This document shows positions 17,641-24,751 of a stretch of 24,751 nt of DNA, one piece after another. The notes beneath the pieces are model-generated. The model saw only the letters and a program-made list of their open reading frames with translations, did not search any database and had not been told where the DNA came from. This stretch comes from a virus, in IMG/VR virus record IMGVR_UViG_3300020160_001592, positions 1-24,751 of that record; one strand, given 5' to 3'. The translations under genes and the position numbers were made by a program. The stretch's first letter is position 1. Each line of letters opens with the position of its first letter.

Positions 17641-18546
17641 ATGGCCACAACAATATCGCCTACTGGACGCAAAGTTCGGTACTTAAACAACCGAGATTTA
17701 CTAGCAGAAATACATAAAAGCAAAAACAGTTTTTCTAGCTTTACACAAAAAGAATATAGTCAACACGATATTATTTTAACAAATTTAGATAAAGTTAATA
17801 TTCGGACAGTTGCAGATGCAAAACGAAACAGGGCAAAACGGCTAGGGCTTATCGCGTTTAATCAAGCAAGATTAAGCGGGGATAAGAAAATAAAACTAGC
17901 AGAAGTTACTCCAGATTATAAAACTATACAGAAAATTGATTTAGTATTCCGAATTATGACTTTTGATCACATCCCAGAAGCACCGGGAAGAAAGAAAACA
18001 GTTAAAAGTACAGCAGATGCTCATGACAAAATTAACTTTCCCCCGTTTCAACATTTTAAATTTGATGAAAATGATCAATTGATCTGTGTAGGGAAAAGTC
18101 ACTGGAAGGGCGATTTAGAAAAAGGTCACTTCAGCAAAGATCACGGACGTATTACTGAAGACTTAGGAAAGATGTTTATTAAGTTAAGCGAAAGATATGC
18201 TCAAAGATCAAATTGGCGGGGTTATACTTATAATGAAGAAATGCGTGGGCAAGCAATTTTACAATTAAGTCAGATTGGTTTACAGTTTGACGAAAGTAAA
18301 TCTGAAAATCCATTTGCATATTATACTGCCGCTGTGACAAATTCTTTTACAAGAGTATTAAACATTGAAAAGAAAATGCAAAATATTAGAGATGATATGT
18401 TAGAAGTAAATGGATTAACACCTAGTTCAACAAGACAATATCAAGCAGAATTTGCAGAAGAAACTGCTCGTCAAGCAGAGTTATATAAAAACTTTAGAAT
18501 GCCAAAATCTGAAGAACCGGACATCGAGGAAGAGGAAGAGGCTTGA
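17641..18546 (+). CDS. gp55: Late-transcription sigma factor gp55, N-terminally extended
   Basis: The 301-residue protein is the phage sigma-family factor that directs host RNA polymerase to late promoters. The conserved core is at about residues 170-260: DLGKMFIKLSERYAQRSNWR, GYTYNEEMRGQAILQLSQIG, then NPFAYYTAAVTNSFTRVLN and EKKMQNIRDDM, a sigma region 2-like helical block that would bind the beta' coiled coil and the TAAATA element. T4 gp55 is only 185 residues. Here about 165 residues precede the core, starting KVRYLNNRDLLAEIHKSKNS and including a basic segment (DAKRNRAKRLGL). The C-terminus is acidic (EEPDIEEEEEA) and may correspond to the tail that in T4 contacts the sliding clamp gp45. 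The gene next door is gp47, matching the T4 neighbourhood of 46, 47 and 55. Confidence 0.9.
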   Translation: MATTISPTGRKVRYLNNRDLLAEIHKSKNSFSSFTQKEYSQHDIILTNLDKVNIRTVADAKRNRAKRLGLIAFNQARLSGDKKIKLAEVTPDYKTIQKIDLVFRIMTFDHIPEAPGRKKTVKSTADAHDKINFPPFQHFKFDENDQLICVGKSHWKGDLEKGHFSKDHGRITEDLGKMFIKLSERYAQRSNWRGYTYNEEMRGQAILQLSQIGLQFDESKSENPFAYYTAAVTNSFTRVLNIEKKMQNIRDDMLEVNGLTPSSTRQYQAEFAEETARQAELYKNFRMPKSEEPDIEEEEEA

Positions 18547-21877: not shown

Positions 21878-22306
21878 ATGACTTGGTACCATAAAGGTTC
21901 TATAGTTACAGAATTGCCTAAAGATTGCGTGGGATTTGTATATCTTATCTCATGTAATACTTCTGGCAGGCTTTATGTTGGCAAAAAATTAGCAAAATTT
22001 AGTAAAACGACCTACAAGACTGTAAAGTTAAAGAACGGCACCAAGAAGAAAAAGAAGATCAGAAGCAAAATAGACAGCGACTGGCAAGATTATTATGGCT
22101 CAAATATAGAACTTAACAAAGATGTTGAGTTATATGGCAAAGAAAATTTTACAAGAGAAATATTACATTATTGTAAATCAAAAGCAGAAACATCTTACAT
22201 TGAGGCCCGAGAACAATTCGACCGCAAAGTATTAGAATCCGATGAATACTATAACGGACATATTCAAGTCCGTATCCATGGCTCTCACATTAAATCTAAA
22301 ATTTAG
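21878..22306 (+). CDS. GIY-YIG-like nuclease-domain protein
   Basis: The 142-residue protein has the strand pair of a GIY-YIG domain: F20-V-Y22 in VGFVYLIS and Y33-V-G35 in GRLYVGKK. A helix with KENFTREILHYCKSKAE and E109 in YIEAREQF follows, in the place of the metal-binding Glu of the family. A basic insertion (LKNGTKKKKKIRSK, about residues 50-63) and the segment DWQDYYGSN come between. It has no separate DNA-recognition domain, unlike SegA-type homing enzymes. It may be a homing-endonuclease relative, or a domesticated phage nuclease working with the recombination genes. The start follows the previous stop by three bases and has only a weak ribosome site. The domain is clear; the activity is not. 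Confidence 0.75.
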   Translation: MTWYHKGSIVTELPKDCVGFVYLISCNTSGRLYVGKKLAKFSKTTYKTVKLKNGTKKKKKIRSKIDSDWQDYYGSNIELNKDVELYGKENFTREILHYCKSKAETSYIEAREQFDRKVLESDEYYNGHIQVRIHGSHIKSKI

Positions 22307-22361
22307 GCAACTTTAAACGGTAATGGCTCGCTCCTGCTAACTTCTGGAGCCCTAAACCTGG

Positions 22362-22454
22362 ACCTTGGGTCGCAGGGATGGAAATCTCTCGCCGTTAAGA
22401 GTGCTCAACCACTACCCGAAAGGATGAGGATCGCTATTAAGCCCTGCGATTTGG
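22362..22454 (+). ncRNA. Candidate structured RNA element with a long closing stem
   Basis: CGCAGGG (22371-22377) pairs perfectly with CCCTGCG (22442-22448). One A-T and three G-T pairs extend the stem outward. The 64 enclosed bases can form CTCT/AGAG (22386-22389 with 22398-22401) and a CC-GAAA-GG tetraloop hairpin (22416-22423). A smaller hairpin, CTCC/GGAG (22331-22349), lies just outside. This looks like a multibranch RNA, but it matches no class I can name. Transcription of this strand is assumed from the flanking genes. Confidence 0.35.
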
Positions 22455-22502
22455 TTGTTTGAATATGTAAAAATAGGCAAAAAGAAGGGAGAAAAACCCT
22501 GG

Positions 22503-22534
22503 ACTTACAAAAGTGTTAGCGTATTTTTGTAAGT
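22503..22534 (+). other. Strong hairpin with AGTGTTAGCG in its loop
   Basis: ACTTACAAAA (22503-22512) pairs perfectly with TTTTGTAAGT (22525-22534). Three more pairs can form towards the loop. The apical loop TTAGCG is complementary to CGCTAA at 22593-22598. No T-run follows it, which argues against a terminator. Confidence 0.65.
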
Positions 22535-22558
22535 TGCCGTCGTATAAAGACGTAGCTC

Positions 22559-22579
22559 GTGGTACCGGATGACCGCCAC
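22559..22579 (+). other. GC-rich bulged hairpin
   Basis: GTGG (22559-22562) pairs with CCAC (22576-22579), and CGG (22566-22568) with CCG (22573-22575). The loop is ATGA and the three-base bulge is TAC (22563-22565). Seven pairs, mostly G-C, make it one of the more stable elements in the gap. Confidence 0.55.
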
Positions 22580-22604
22580 TGTAATGCTATAACGCTAAGT
22601 GATC

Positions 22605-22658
22605 ATGTTCGACTCAGATAATGTTCATTTTTGCCCGCCCTGGGCAAAGTGTGACTGA
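22605..22658 (+). CDS. Possible 17-residue mini-protein
   Basis: ATG 22605 opens a short frame encoding MFDSDNVHFCPPWAKCD and stopping at TGA 22656-22658. The peptide has two cysteines six residues apart, a Pro-Pro-Trp, and an acidic start. Only a weak ribosome site (TAAG, 22596-22599) precedes it. The bases from 22630 to 22648 also form a 7-bp hairpin, so the sequence may be constrained as RNA rather than as protein. It could be a leader peptide, a small structural peptide or chance. Confidence 0.25.
   Translation: MFDSDNVHFCPPWAKCD
22630..22648 (+). other. 7-bp GC-rich hairpin inside the mini-ORF
   Basis: TTTGCCC (22630-22636) pairs perfectly with GGGCAAA (22642-22648) around a five-base loop, GCCCT. 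The T-run lies before the stem, not after it, so it is not a rightward terminator. The leftward strand has A bases after the stem, which rules that out too. Confidence 0.55.
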
Positions 22659-22677
22659 ACGATCTAGATAATATTAA

Positions 22678-22738
22678 ATCATCTACGATGATAAAACTGC
22701 TTCGAGTGTTAGCGAAGAAGCATACGAACGTAGTTCGT
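22678..22738 (+). other. Cluster of three short hairpins ahead of the late-promoter motif
   Basis: ATCATC-TAC-GATGAT (22678-22692) and ACGAAC-GTA-GTTCGT (22724-22738) are perfect 6-bp stems. Their three-base loops, TAC and GTA, are complementary to one another. Between them CTTCG (22700-22704) pairs with CGAAG (22713-22717) around AGTGTTAG, and the alternative GCTTC/GAAGC (22699-22721) is equally possible. The last hairpin ends two bases before CATAAATA. An operator, an RNA-processing site or a leader structure would all fit. Confidence 0.5.
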
Positions 22739-22739
22739 T

Positions 22740-22747
22740 CATAAATA
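22740..22747 (+). promoter_or_regulatory. Late-promoter-like motif CATAAATA before the gene at 22772
   Basis: The motif matches the T4 late -10 TATAAATA at seven of eight positions. It ends 25 bases before ATG 22772, the same spacing as the gp6 motif. It marks the downstream genes as likely late virion genes. Confidence 0.55.
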
Positions 22748-22771
22748 AAGAATAATATTTCGGAATAATAA

Positions 22772-24163
22772 ATGCAATTATCAACACTTCTTAGTAAACT
22801 TGATGAAATTGAAAGTTCTCCTAAACAATCTATATTTGAAAGCATAGGTCAAGGAGATCAATACTTCCGTACCTGGGAAAGAGATATTCATCCAGTACTA
22901 TGTGAGGTTGCATTACAGCCTGATCAAGTTCAACAACTCTTTAAAAGCATTGAAGCAGGTGCTGGCCGTAGTGCGTTAGGTAAAGGTCTAGATGCCGTTA
23001 AAGGTGCTAAGGACAAAATCAGTGATGTCTGGTTTAATAAATTTGGAGGTATGCTACAGAGTAGTGCTCCGGTTCAATCGTTTGATCAAAAATGGGAAGA
23101 ACTTAAATCATCTATTGCTAAAAAGAATCCTGAGCTTGCATCTAAACTAGCCAAATACGGTGAGTTCGCTAAGAATAATCCTAACCTACATAAATTTTTG
23201 TTAGCTATTGCAGGTTCAGCCGCAGCCGCATTAGGTGTAGCAGTTGCAGGCGGAATTGGTGCAGGTGCTCTAGCAGTTGGCACAGGTACAGGTGTTGCAG
23301 TAGGTATTGTTAATATTGCCGACCGGTTACTACAAGGTCAAAAAGCATCAACAGCTATTGGTAGAGGTGCAACCGCAGGAGTGGTAGCAGGTATCACAGC
23401 AGGAACCCTGGCAAAACTTGGAAGTTGGCTAGGAGGGTTTCGTGAAAAATCAATACCATTTGGTCCAGCAGATGCAGGCCTAGAACAAGTAAGTTGGGAT
23501 GCAACTCGTACTCTTAGAGCGCCCGGAATGGAGTCAATTCAAAGACTACAAGGGTTTAATGCTCTAGTAAAACCTGAAGAAGCTAGCGGTATTCGTGCAG
23601 CCATGAACTTGATCAAAAGCGGAGGCGACGGAGCACTTGAAGGATTTAAACAACTTGAAAGTATTAGTAGGATTGTTCGAAACAAAGAATATATGGCAGG
23701 AATGGATGAACTGGTCCAAGGTGCATGGAAAGTTGCCAAAAATAACGACAGTATTTTACAATTTATCAACGGTATAACACAGGCAAGCACAGCAGCCGCA
23801 GGCGGCGCTGCCAGTGCAGGTATGGCTTCGGGAGGCCAGAAATCTGCACCGCTTTCAGAAAATCAATTAAACGAATTATTTGGCATCACAGGCAATAAAG
23901 TAGATGCTAGTAAATTAGAAAAGGCCTGGAAGAAGGCAGGTAGTCCGATGGACAGCGAAGAAATTGCTAAGATACTAGCAGATACAGGGGTTGATAGTCA
24001 AGTAATCAAAACTGCATTTACTGGCATAGGACTTCCAGAGCCATCTGAAACAAATAGTGTAAATACACAATTATTACAACAGATTCAGCAAGAATTTGCA
24101 AAACTTGATCCAGAAGGACAGCAACAAATTCTAGCTTATTTGCAATCATCAGGAATAGCATAA
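22772..24163 (+). CDS. Probable internal virion protein with glycine-zipper membrane segments
   Basis: A 463-residue protein that I cannot assign to a named family. The N-terminus MQLSTLLSKLDEIESS resembles the T4 capsid-targeting peptide and contains LDE, a possible (I/L)-x-E site for the prohead protease. Residues about 142-183 are a long hydrophobic Ala/Gly stretch (AIAGSAAAALGVAVAGGIGA and on), followed by a second at about 193-222. Both have the small-residue spacing of glycine zippers and could form a membrane hairpin. The C-terminal part is soluble and helical, ending in QLLQQIQQEFAKLDPEGQQQ. One reading is an internal protein ejected with the DNA that inserts into the host membrane; this is inference. 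It has a late-promoter-like motif, and its stop is one base before the next gene. Confidence 0.65.
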   Translation: MQLSTLLSKLDEIESSPKQSIFESIGQGDQYFRTWERDIHPVLCEVALQPDQVQQLFKSIEAGAGRSALGKGLDAVKGAKDKISDVWFNKFGGMLQSSAPVQSFDQKWEELKSSIAKKNPELASKLAKYGEFAKNNPNLHKFLLAIAGSAAAALGVAVAGGIGAGALAVGTGTGVAVGIVNIADRLLQGQKASTAIGRGATAGVVAGITAGTLAKLGSWLGGFREKSIPFGPADAGLEQVSWDATRTLRAPGMESIQRLQGFNALVKPEEASGIRAAMNLIKSGGDGALEGFKQLESISRIVRNKEYMAGMDELVQGAWKVAKNNDSILQFINGITQASTAAAGGAASAGMASGGQKSAPLSENQLNELFGITGNKVDASKLEKAWKKAGSPMDSEEIAKILADTGVDSQVIKTAFTGIGLPEPSETNSVNTQLLQQIQQEFAKLDPEGQQQILAYLQSSGIA

Positions 24164-24164
24164 A

Positions 24165-24751
24165 ATGAAAATTACAGAATTGCTCGAACAAAGACAACAG
24201 GTAGATGAATTAAACATGGCCCAGGTAGGCAATGCAATTGGTAAAGGTGCAACTGCCGTAGGAAAAGGCAATGTCACTAATATCAGTATCTCTGCTACCA
24301 CTGCACCTTCGGTTGTTACTACAGCAGGCTCTGGTACGGCAAAAGAGACGTCGGTCATAACATTCAACCCATTGGCTGCTGGCGAAGCAGTTACCGTCAA
24401 TGGCTTAACTTACACAGCAAAAAACAGCTTAAGCGCTAATCAAGTAGCAGCCGCTTTTGCTAGCTTGACATCAGGTATGACTGCAGCTGCAGCCACAACT
24501 GCCAACAGTGCAAGTGCGGCACTTGGAACATTTTCAGGGACAGCATTTACTGCAGGGTTTACCACTGGCGCAGCAAGTGGCTCTAGCATCACAGCATCCA
24601 GCGTATCCAACGCAGACGTAACTGACATCACAGTAACTGCCAGTCTGACGGCTCCCACTGCTAGCACTACGGATGGTATTAGCGTTGCAGCTTCAACGGT
24701 TTATGGCACAGTCACTTTAACGTCTAATGAGCCATTTACCGTCAAACCTGG
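24165..24751 (+). CDS. Adhesin-like Ala/Thr/Ser-rich protein, 3' end beyond the window
   Basis: The frame opens at ATG 24165, one base after the preceding stop, with GGAA upstream. It stays open for 195 codons to the right edge. It begins MKITELLEQRQQVDEL, again like a capsid-targeting peptide, with LLE as a possible protease site. From about residue 50 it becomes rich in Ala, Thr, Ser and Gly with beta-strand spacing: FNPLAAGEAVTVNGLTYTA, then LSANQVAAAFASL, GTFSGTAFTAGFTTG and SNADVTDITVTASL. That order recalls repeat units of bacterial surface adhesins and RTX-like proteins. The DNA here is visibly richer in G and C than neighbouring genes, suggesting acquisition or distinct codon preference. 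Function is unknown; virion decoration or internal protein are possibilities. Confidence 0.68.
   Translation, partial: MKITELLEQRQQVDELNMAQVGNAIGKGATAVGKGNVTNISISATTAPSVVTTAGSGTAKETSVITFNPLAAGEAVTVNGLTYTAKNSLSANQVAAAFASLTSGMTAAAATTANSASAALGTFSGTAFTAGFTTGAASGSSITASSVSNADVTDITVTASLTAPTASTTDGISVAASTVYGTVTLTSNEPFTVKP

Follow-up and report, generated by a model that had tools for sequence, protein, structure and literature searches.

The stretch of DNA analysed here, a 24.75-kb virus record referred to in its entirety as the window, carries minus-strand virion genes first and then a run of plus-strand genes that begins with a late sigma factor (17641-18546). Between the sigma factor and a gene for a SegE-like GIY-YIG endonuclease of 142 aa (21878-22306, plus strand; Pfam PF19835, 4.6e-31), the plus strand encodes gp47-like and gp46-like recombination subunits and two small ORFs. 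The GIY-YIG protein also matches PHROG 447, to which PHROGs and many phage records give the label “NAD synthetase”; since Pfam assigns the same protein to the SegE GIY-YIG group, this label looks like a widespread misannotation. Downstream of the endonuclease gene lies a gap without a gene (22307-22771), which extends, just as the preliminary description had reported, from the ORF ending at 22306 to the ORF starting at 22772. The latter (22772-24163, plus strand) encodes a protein of 463 aa with the N-terminus MQLSTLLSKLDEIESS, probably of a head-internal type by the tag pattern count given below; it matched no family in Pfam or PHROGs and has no relative among isolate phages. A second downstream gene (24165-24749, plus strand; N-terminus MKITELLEQRQQVDEL) bears a capsid-targeting-like tag by the same count. 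When the gap was compared by blastn with 50,697 isolate phages, only chance matches came up.

The order gp46, small ORFs, GIY-YIG, gap and downstream gene is kept in relatives. At 158 of 172 loci the GIY-YIG gene is the same-strand upstream neighbour of the RNA that occupies the gap, and at most loci the RNA begins on that strand a median of 18 nt past the GIY-YIG stop codon. In L244 a different gene takes this place, and in L024 (3100-3545), L209, L254, L203 and L297 the SegE-like gene is separated from the RNA by additional genes, which stop 4-28 nt before the RNA begins; one of these is a second GIY-YIG gene and the rest are unnamed. A SegE-type gene is present in 389 isolate phage records, and in the three isolates among them that were examined (Melnitz-3, BUCT-ZZ01 and ACP17) no comparable gap or RNA is annotated beside it.

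Extent and fold of the RNA

The gap holds a complete structured RNA of about 415 nt (22325-22739, plus strand), composed of a 5' domain and a 3' half and delimited by a full-profile nhmmer match, with covariation in sets of 35 and 124 homologues; the remaining ~30 nt at the 3' end of the gap belong to the next gene, as its promoter and start. On the plus strand the gap folds with a z-score of -3.47 relative to 100 dinucleotide shuffles, none of which did as well, and the minus-strand fold is weaker (z -1.90, dinucleotide shuffles). Relatives were collected by searching with the downstream protein, which gave 64 loci, and with patterns from the conserved core; a profile of the whole region matched 190 loci, 145 of them at full length. 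In an alignment of 35 homologues, RNAalifold found compensatory changes in 41 of 70 pairs; the structure was then refined by a column-coupling analysis over 124 sequences to a set of 89 named pairs, for which 90.2% of cells in the 35 homologues are paired and 61 pairs have changed on both sides. Controls in which the partners were slid gave 36-45% paired cells and covariation scores of 0.07-0.09, as compared with a score of 0.406 for the actual pairs. The structured RNA at 22325-22739 is, for practical purposes, certain. Its fold comprises about 20 helices, including the pseudoknots PK0, PK1 and PK2, and it hides no gene, since the ORFs within it vary in place and strand among loci.

Several points of the preliminary description can be settled from these data. 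Its reading of the gap as a phage noncoding RNA is upheld by the strong covariation and by the conserved presence of the RNA at 190 loci; its stems change with compensation, as in 61 of 89 pairs, and do not show the uncompensated change that the preliminary description had named as a refutation. Its impression that none of the stems resembles a terminator agrees with the lack of an intrinsic terminator on the plus strand of the gap, and it was right to set aside group I and II introns, tmRNA and RNase P RNA, for none of which Rfam models or ARAGORN gave a match. It had further found no known RNA class and had named a confident Rfam match as grounds for calling the RNA known rather than new. 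This part holds for the ~280 nt at the 3' side, where no Rfam cut-off was passed, and fails for the 5' third (22325-22460), which is RF01718.

The 5' domain matches RF01718, the Polynucleobacter-1 RNA, over the whole of the model (positions 1-141) with 114.7 bits against a cut-off of 37. Weinberg et al. 2010 (PMC2864571) described Polynucleobacter-1, from Burkholderiales and from fresh water or estuary samples, as probably a structured RNA and gave no function. Pair counts place six helices in this domain: P1 (22330-34/22346-50), P2 (22357-64/22368-76), P3 (22386-89/22398-401), P4 (22406-11/22452-57), P5 (22416-17/22422-23) and P6 (22429-34/22446-51), of which P1, P2, P3, P4 and P6 are consensus helices of RF01718, retained here with covariation. 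The 5' end of the RNA, 22325-27, pairs with 22336-38 in the P1 loop to form pseudoknot PK0 (22325-22338), detected through the coupling of 22326 with 22337 (GC in 101 sequences, AT in 20); its inner two pairs are formed in 98.5% of cases and the outer pair 22325/22338 in 75%. The 5' third of the RNA thus belongs to RF01718, and the whole is larger than catalogued: in all 145 full-length copies it is ~280 nt longer than the motif and has two more pseudoknots as well as a pair of direct repeats, R1 and R2, so that the Rfam entry describes the 5' third only.

The 3' half opens with helix P7 (22486-89/22497-500), identified by couplings in the 124 sequences and paired in only 71% of cells because its register varies. 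It is followed by hairpin P8 (22503-22534), with a conserved UUAGC loop; this is the 10-bp hairpin singled out in the preliminary description (22503-22512/22525-22534), and all 12 pairs counted show compensatory changes. The P8 loop pairs in turn with a downstream strand to form pseudoknot PK2 (22516-22598; UUAGCGU at 22516-22522 with ACGCUAA at 22592-22598), identified by couplings, 98.4% paired and changed on both sides in six of seven pairs. Pseudoknot PK1 (22539-22573) joins GUCG at 22539-42 to UGAC at 22570-73, with 96.4% pairing and two-sided changes in two of four pairs. Among the strongest couplings are those of the core helices P11 (22553-56/22586-89) and P12 (22560-62/22576-78), which together (22553-22589) enclose the conserved GGUACCGGAURACCGCC. 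Further hairpins are P14 (22630-22648; UUUGCCC/GGGCAAA), which lies between R1 and R2, P15 (22699-22721), which is 94.9% paired with two-sided changes in five of five pairs, and the terminal P16 (22723-22739), seen in the couplings. Two loci (L035, 1180-1577; L046, 860-1204) represent a third type in which the 3' part with R1, hairpin and R2 is retained and the whole 5' part is different. In L193 (8440-8640), a deletion takes R1, hairpin P14 and the partner strand of PK2, and leaves R2.

Part of the 3' half (22502-22599, plus strand) also resembles a second Rfam entry, the cow-rumen-2 RNA RF02947, albeit at 22.4 bits (E 0.11) and below the cut-off of 66. The loci collected by core patterns fall into window-like and cow-rumen-2-like groups, and because these loci had been chosen by motif, the RF02947 model was run on 22 whole window-type phage records picked by other means. 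It gave nine matches up to E 10, eight of which lie on the 3' half of the RNA (best 6.9e-4), and none of the 22 relatives passed the gathering threshold. In the reverse direction, a window-type model found the rumen loci at the right place, with E 0.0075 at best. The UAGC-loop hairpin, GCCGYC, the GUAGC...GUACNGGAUGACC core and GUAA occur in the same order in both RNAs. By these sequence comparisons the 3' half is shown to be distantly homologous to cow-rumen-2, at a level below the Rfam cut-off. The 5' domains of the two types differ, as RF01718 is absent from 15 rumen records, and so do the surroundings: cow-rumen-2 loci have a Bacteroidota-like promoter upstream of the RNA and a TATAAATA late element downstream, and, unlike the window type, have no GIY-YIG neighbour. 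Five of them (L121, L127, L131, L145 and L166) lie in contigs of 210-424 kb, which suggests that cow-rumen-2 RNAs probably reside in jumbo phages of rumen bacteria. Two short orphan motifs that had been filed separately are thus parts of larger, related phage RNAs, and such RNAs are common in fresh water, marine water and the rumen.

Late promoter and tagged neighbour genes

Immediately 3' of the RNA lies a T4-type late promoter element of the next gene (22741-22747, plus strand; CATAAATA including 22740). A late-type element separates RNA and next gene at 118 of 126 same-strand loci and at none of five convergent loci. The motif TATAAATA is rarer than expected in these phage genomes, and 12 of its 16 copies are situated within 80 nt upstream of an ORF, both of which support it as a real late promoter. 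The downstream neighbour is convergent with the RNA at 41 of 177 loci. Because a late promoter intervenes and neighbours can be convergent, the RNA does not serve the next gene as a 5' leader; the long regulatory leader that the preliminary description had considered, or any other 5' cis-regulatory, riboswitch-like reading, is not supported.

The same-strand downstream genes share an N-terminal tag, M-K/R-I-x-E-L/I-L, mostly followed by L/I-X-E. Downstream and on the same strand, the tag is present in 70 of 136 genes in first place and in 58 of 70 in second place, as against 1 of 456 upstream genes (0/170, 1/139 and 0/147). Tag and cleavage-type site occur together in 60 of the 136 first genes and 43 of the 70 second ones when the site may begin with I, L or V. 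The internal head proteins of T4 have capsid-targeting propeptides of 10-19 residues, which the protease gp21 cuts after L/I-X-E (PMC9026906). The neighbour genes likewise start with a tag of 10-20 residues and then L/I-X-E, and by this pattern their tag is probably of the T4-like capsid-targeting type. Unlike the T4 internal proteins, they show no match to a sequence family: no PADLOC, PHROGs or Pfam family and no head family was found for the tagged proteins, PADLOC covering only the genes beside them. Tagged genes are absent beside the RNA at loci with convergent neighbours and in the cow-rumen-2 types. We know of no counterpart of the structured RNA in T4.

Coupled repeats and copies in bacterial chromosomes

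The 3' half contains two direct repeats, R1 (22609-22623; ACUC + AGAUAAU, with the 7-mer at 22616-22622) and R2 (22660-22673; AUCU + AGAUAAU), whose 7-mers are the same in the window and change in concert on the tree. In 123 of 124 sequences the two 7-mers match exactly, with 11 variants among them, and they have changed together at least 38 times on a quick tree from which the repeat columns were excluded, a count that recombination could inflate. The same rule holds with other sequences in divergent types and in bacterial copies (for example, ACTTAAA in L334); among cow-rumen-2 loci, repeats are clear in L071 and L087, weaker in L069, and elsewhere not significant or absent. As these alignments show, R1 and R2 must present the same 7-nt sequence, the sequence itself being free to change. 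Searches for a counterpart gave no complement of R1/R2 inside the RNA or in 2.5-kb flanks, no site repeated across ~400 kb of phage genomes, and no residues covarying with the repeats in neighbouring proteins, the GIY-YIG protein included. We read the two repeats as one partner bound twice. Such repeats, identical to each other and yet able to take almost any sequence, would be a rare hallmark of an RNA that docks twice, and one that lends itself to a sharp test.

A scan of genomes first detected the RNA in a Methylococcaceae MAG, and six of 237 genomes of that family were then found to carry it; outside Methylococcaceae it was hardly found in genome scans. Copies in Methylococcaceae-like genomes are located at L331 9356-9738, L332 3141-3517, L333 14154-14533, L334 10125-10690, L338 9412-9729, L339 377-754 and L340 1-421. 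L334 and L338 contain long stretches of ordinary bacterial genes, and the copies in L333 and L338 adjoin type IIG restriction and TIR-type genes. As some contigs are short MAG pieces, L332, L339 and L340 may represent mis-binned phage DNA. One of two contig-scan matches, in L325 (Niastella), was a short match only and was dropped.

At five of the six bacterial loci with upstream sequence, a divergent gene encodes a protein of 108-138 aa that has a tag of the same type and an Arg/Pro-rich body (L334 9582-9992, L333 13553-13969, L338 9988-10404, L331 9921-10301 and L332 2647-2982); at four loci a late-like element precedes the ATG of this gene by 26-27 nt. The members of this family share a layout of N-terminal tag, I/V-x-E-G/A, Arg/Pro-rich middle and conserved C-terminal NPKID...VFPE.TDKEIEIEMK, and match no Pfam or PHROGs family.

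Possible functions of the RNA

The identity of the RNA is firm, and its function is what we infer. It likely acts in trans, to judge from the late promoter between it and the next gene, the convergent neighbours, the copies without GIY-YIG in cow-rumen-2 phages and the copies in bacteria. A link to head-internal proteins is plausible, if less than even in our estimation, and the best explanation that we can offer, tentatively, is a stand-alone, trans-acting RNA of ~415 nt in T4-like phages that works with such proteins. The RNA would be transcribed at the end of the gp47-gp46-GIY-YIG operon, with the cow-rumen-2 types seemingly using a host-type promoter of their own, and its compact body would display R1 and R2 on both sides of hairpin P14, where a single partner, either a protein (of phage or host) or a further RNA, would dock twice. 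The tagged genes downstream in phages and the divergent gene at the bacterial copies point to late head assembly as the process in which this partner might take part. The RNA may help to load head-internal proteins or may be loaded with them, and the tagged proteins would, like the internal proteins of T4, be directed to the prohead and cleaved by gp21; that the RNA itself is packaged in heads is a guess. In phages, the tag genes could lie nearby through a gene order that was inherited, and not for a functional reason. Present in phages and, independently, at bacterial copies, the link with tag genes is the first concrete lead to the function of the RNA. Competition with look-alike RNAs in host chromosomes might drive the rapid concerted switching of R1 and R2. 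A speculative and rather improbable extension is that T4-like phages package or load the RNA with capsid-targeted internal proteins, that a minimal two-part element of bacterial chromosomes, consisting of a look-alike RNA and a capsid-targeted basic protein driven by a late promoter, hitch-hikes on or sabotages these phages, and that the R1/R2 switching marks the conflict.

Among other readings, it is conceivable, if doubtful, that the RNA serves the upstream recombination operon as a regulatory structure in the 3' untranslated region, shielding or terminating the early/middle transcript and separating it from the late promoter. The short same-strand spacing behind the GIY-YIG stop codon at most loci and the late promoter directly 3' of the RNA would suit such a role; however, an RNA with three pseudoknots and no U-run is far more elaborate than a terminator, the cow-rumen-2 relatives and bacterial copies do not lie behind that operon, and the R1/R2 coupling is left unexplained. 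We consider it unlikely that the phage makes the RNA as a decoy, or to counter host defence, by titrating a host protein: the bacterial copies in L333, L338 and L332 are in or near defence islands and the quick switching of R1 and R2 suggests an arms race, but no host target was identified and bacterial copies are few, at six of 237 genomes.

An element acting at the DNA level, such as the origin that the preliminary description had also entertained or a recombination site, would account for the adjoining recombination genes and for the required identity of R1 and R2, which is also required of the cores of recombination sites. Such an element is very unlikely, since the pseudoknots are of RNA type, with G-U pairs and compensatory changes that argue for RNA as the functional form, R1 and R2 lack inverted arms, and the sole deletion seen, that in L193, is not an R1 x R2 product. 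Most improbable is that the RNA guides the adjacent GIY-YIG endonuclease, or acts as its cofactor, in the way that omega RNAs do for IscB or TnpB, for despite the gene lying immediately upstream at most loci the linkage is not obligate (it fails in the cow-rumen-2 loci, the bacterial copies and L244), no such RNA is annotated in the three isolates examined from the 389 records with SegE-type genes, neither end of the RNA has a variable guide, and no residues of the GIY-YIG protein covary with the repeats.

Among known systems, GOLLD and ROOL are likewise large, ornate phage RNAs with several pseudoknots, whose function is not established (PMC12286853). Their Rfam models gave no match at gathering threshold or at E <= 1, and the RNA described here is shorter than either and has no tRNA in the window. 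With GOLLD it shares the combination of a conserved 3' and a variable 5' region (PMC12286853).
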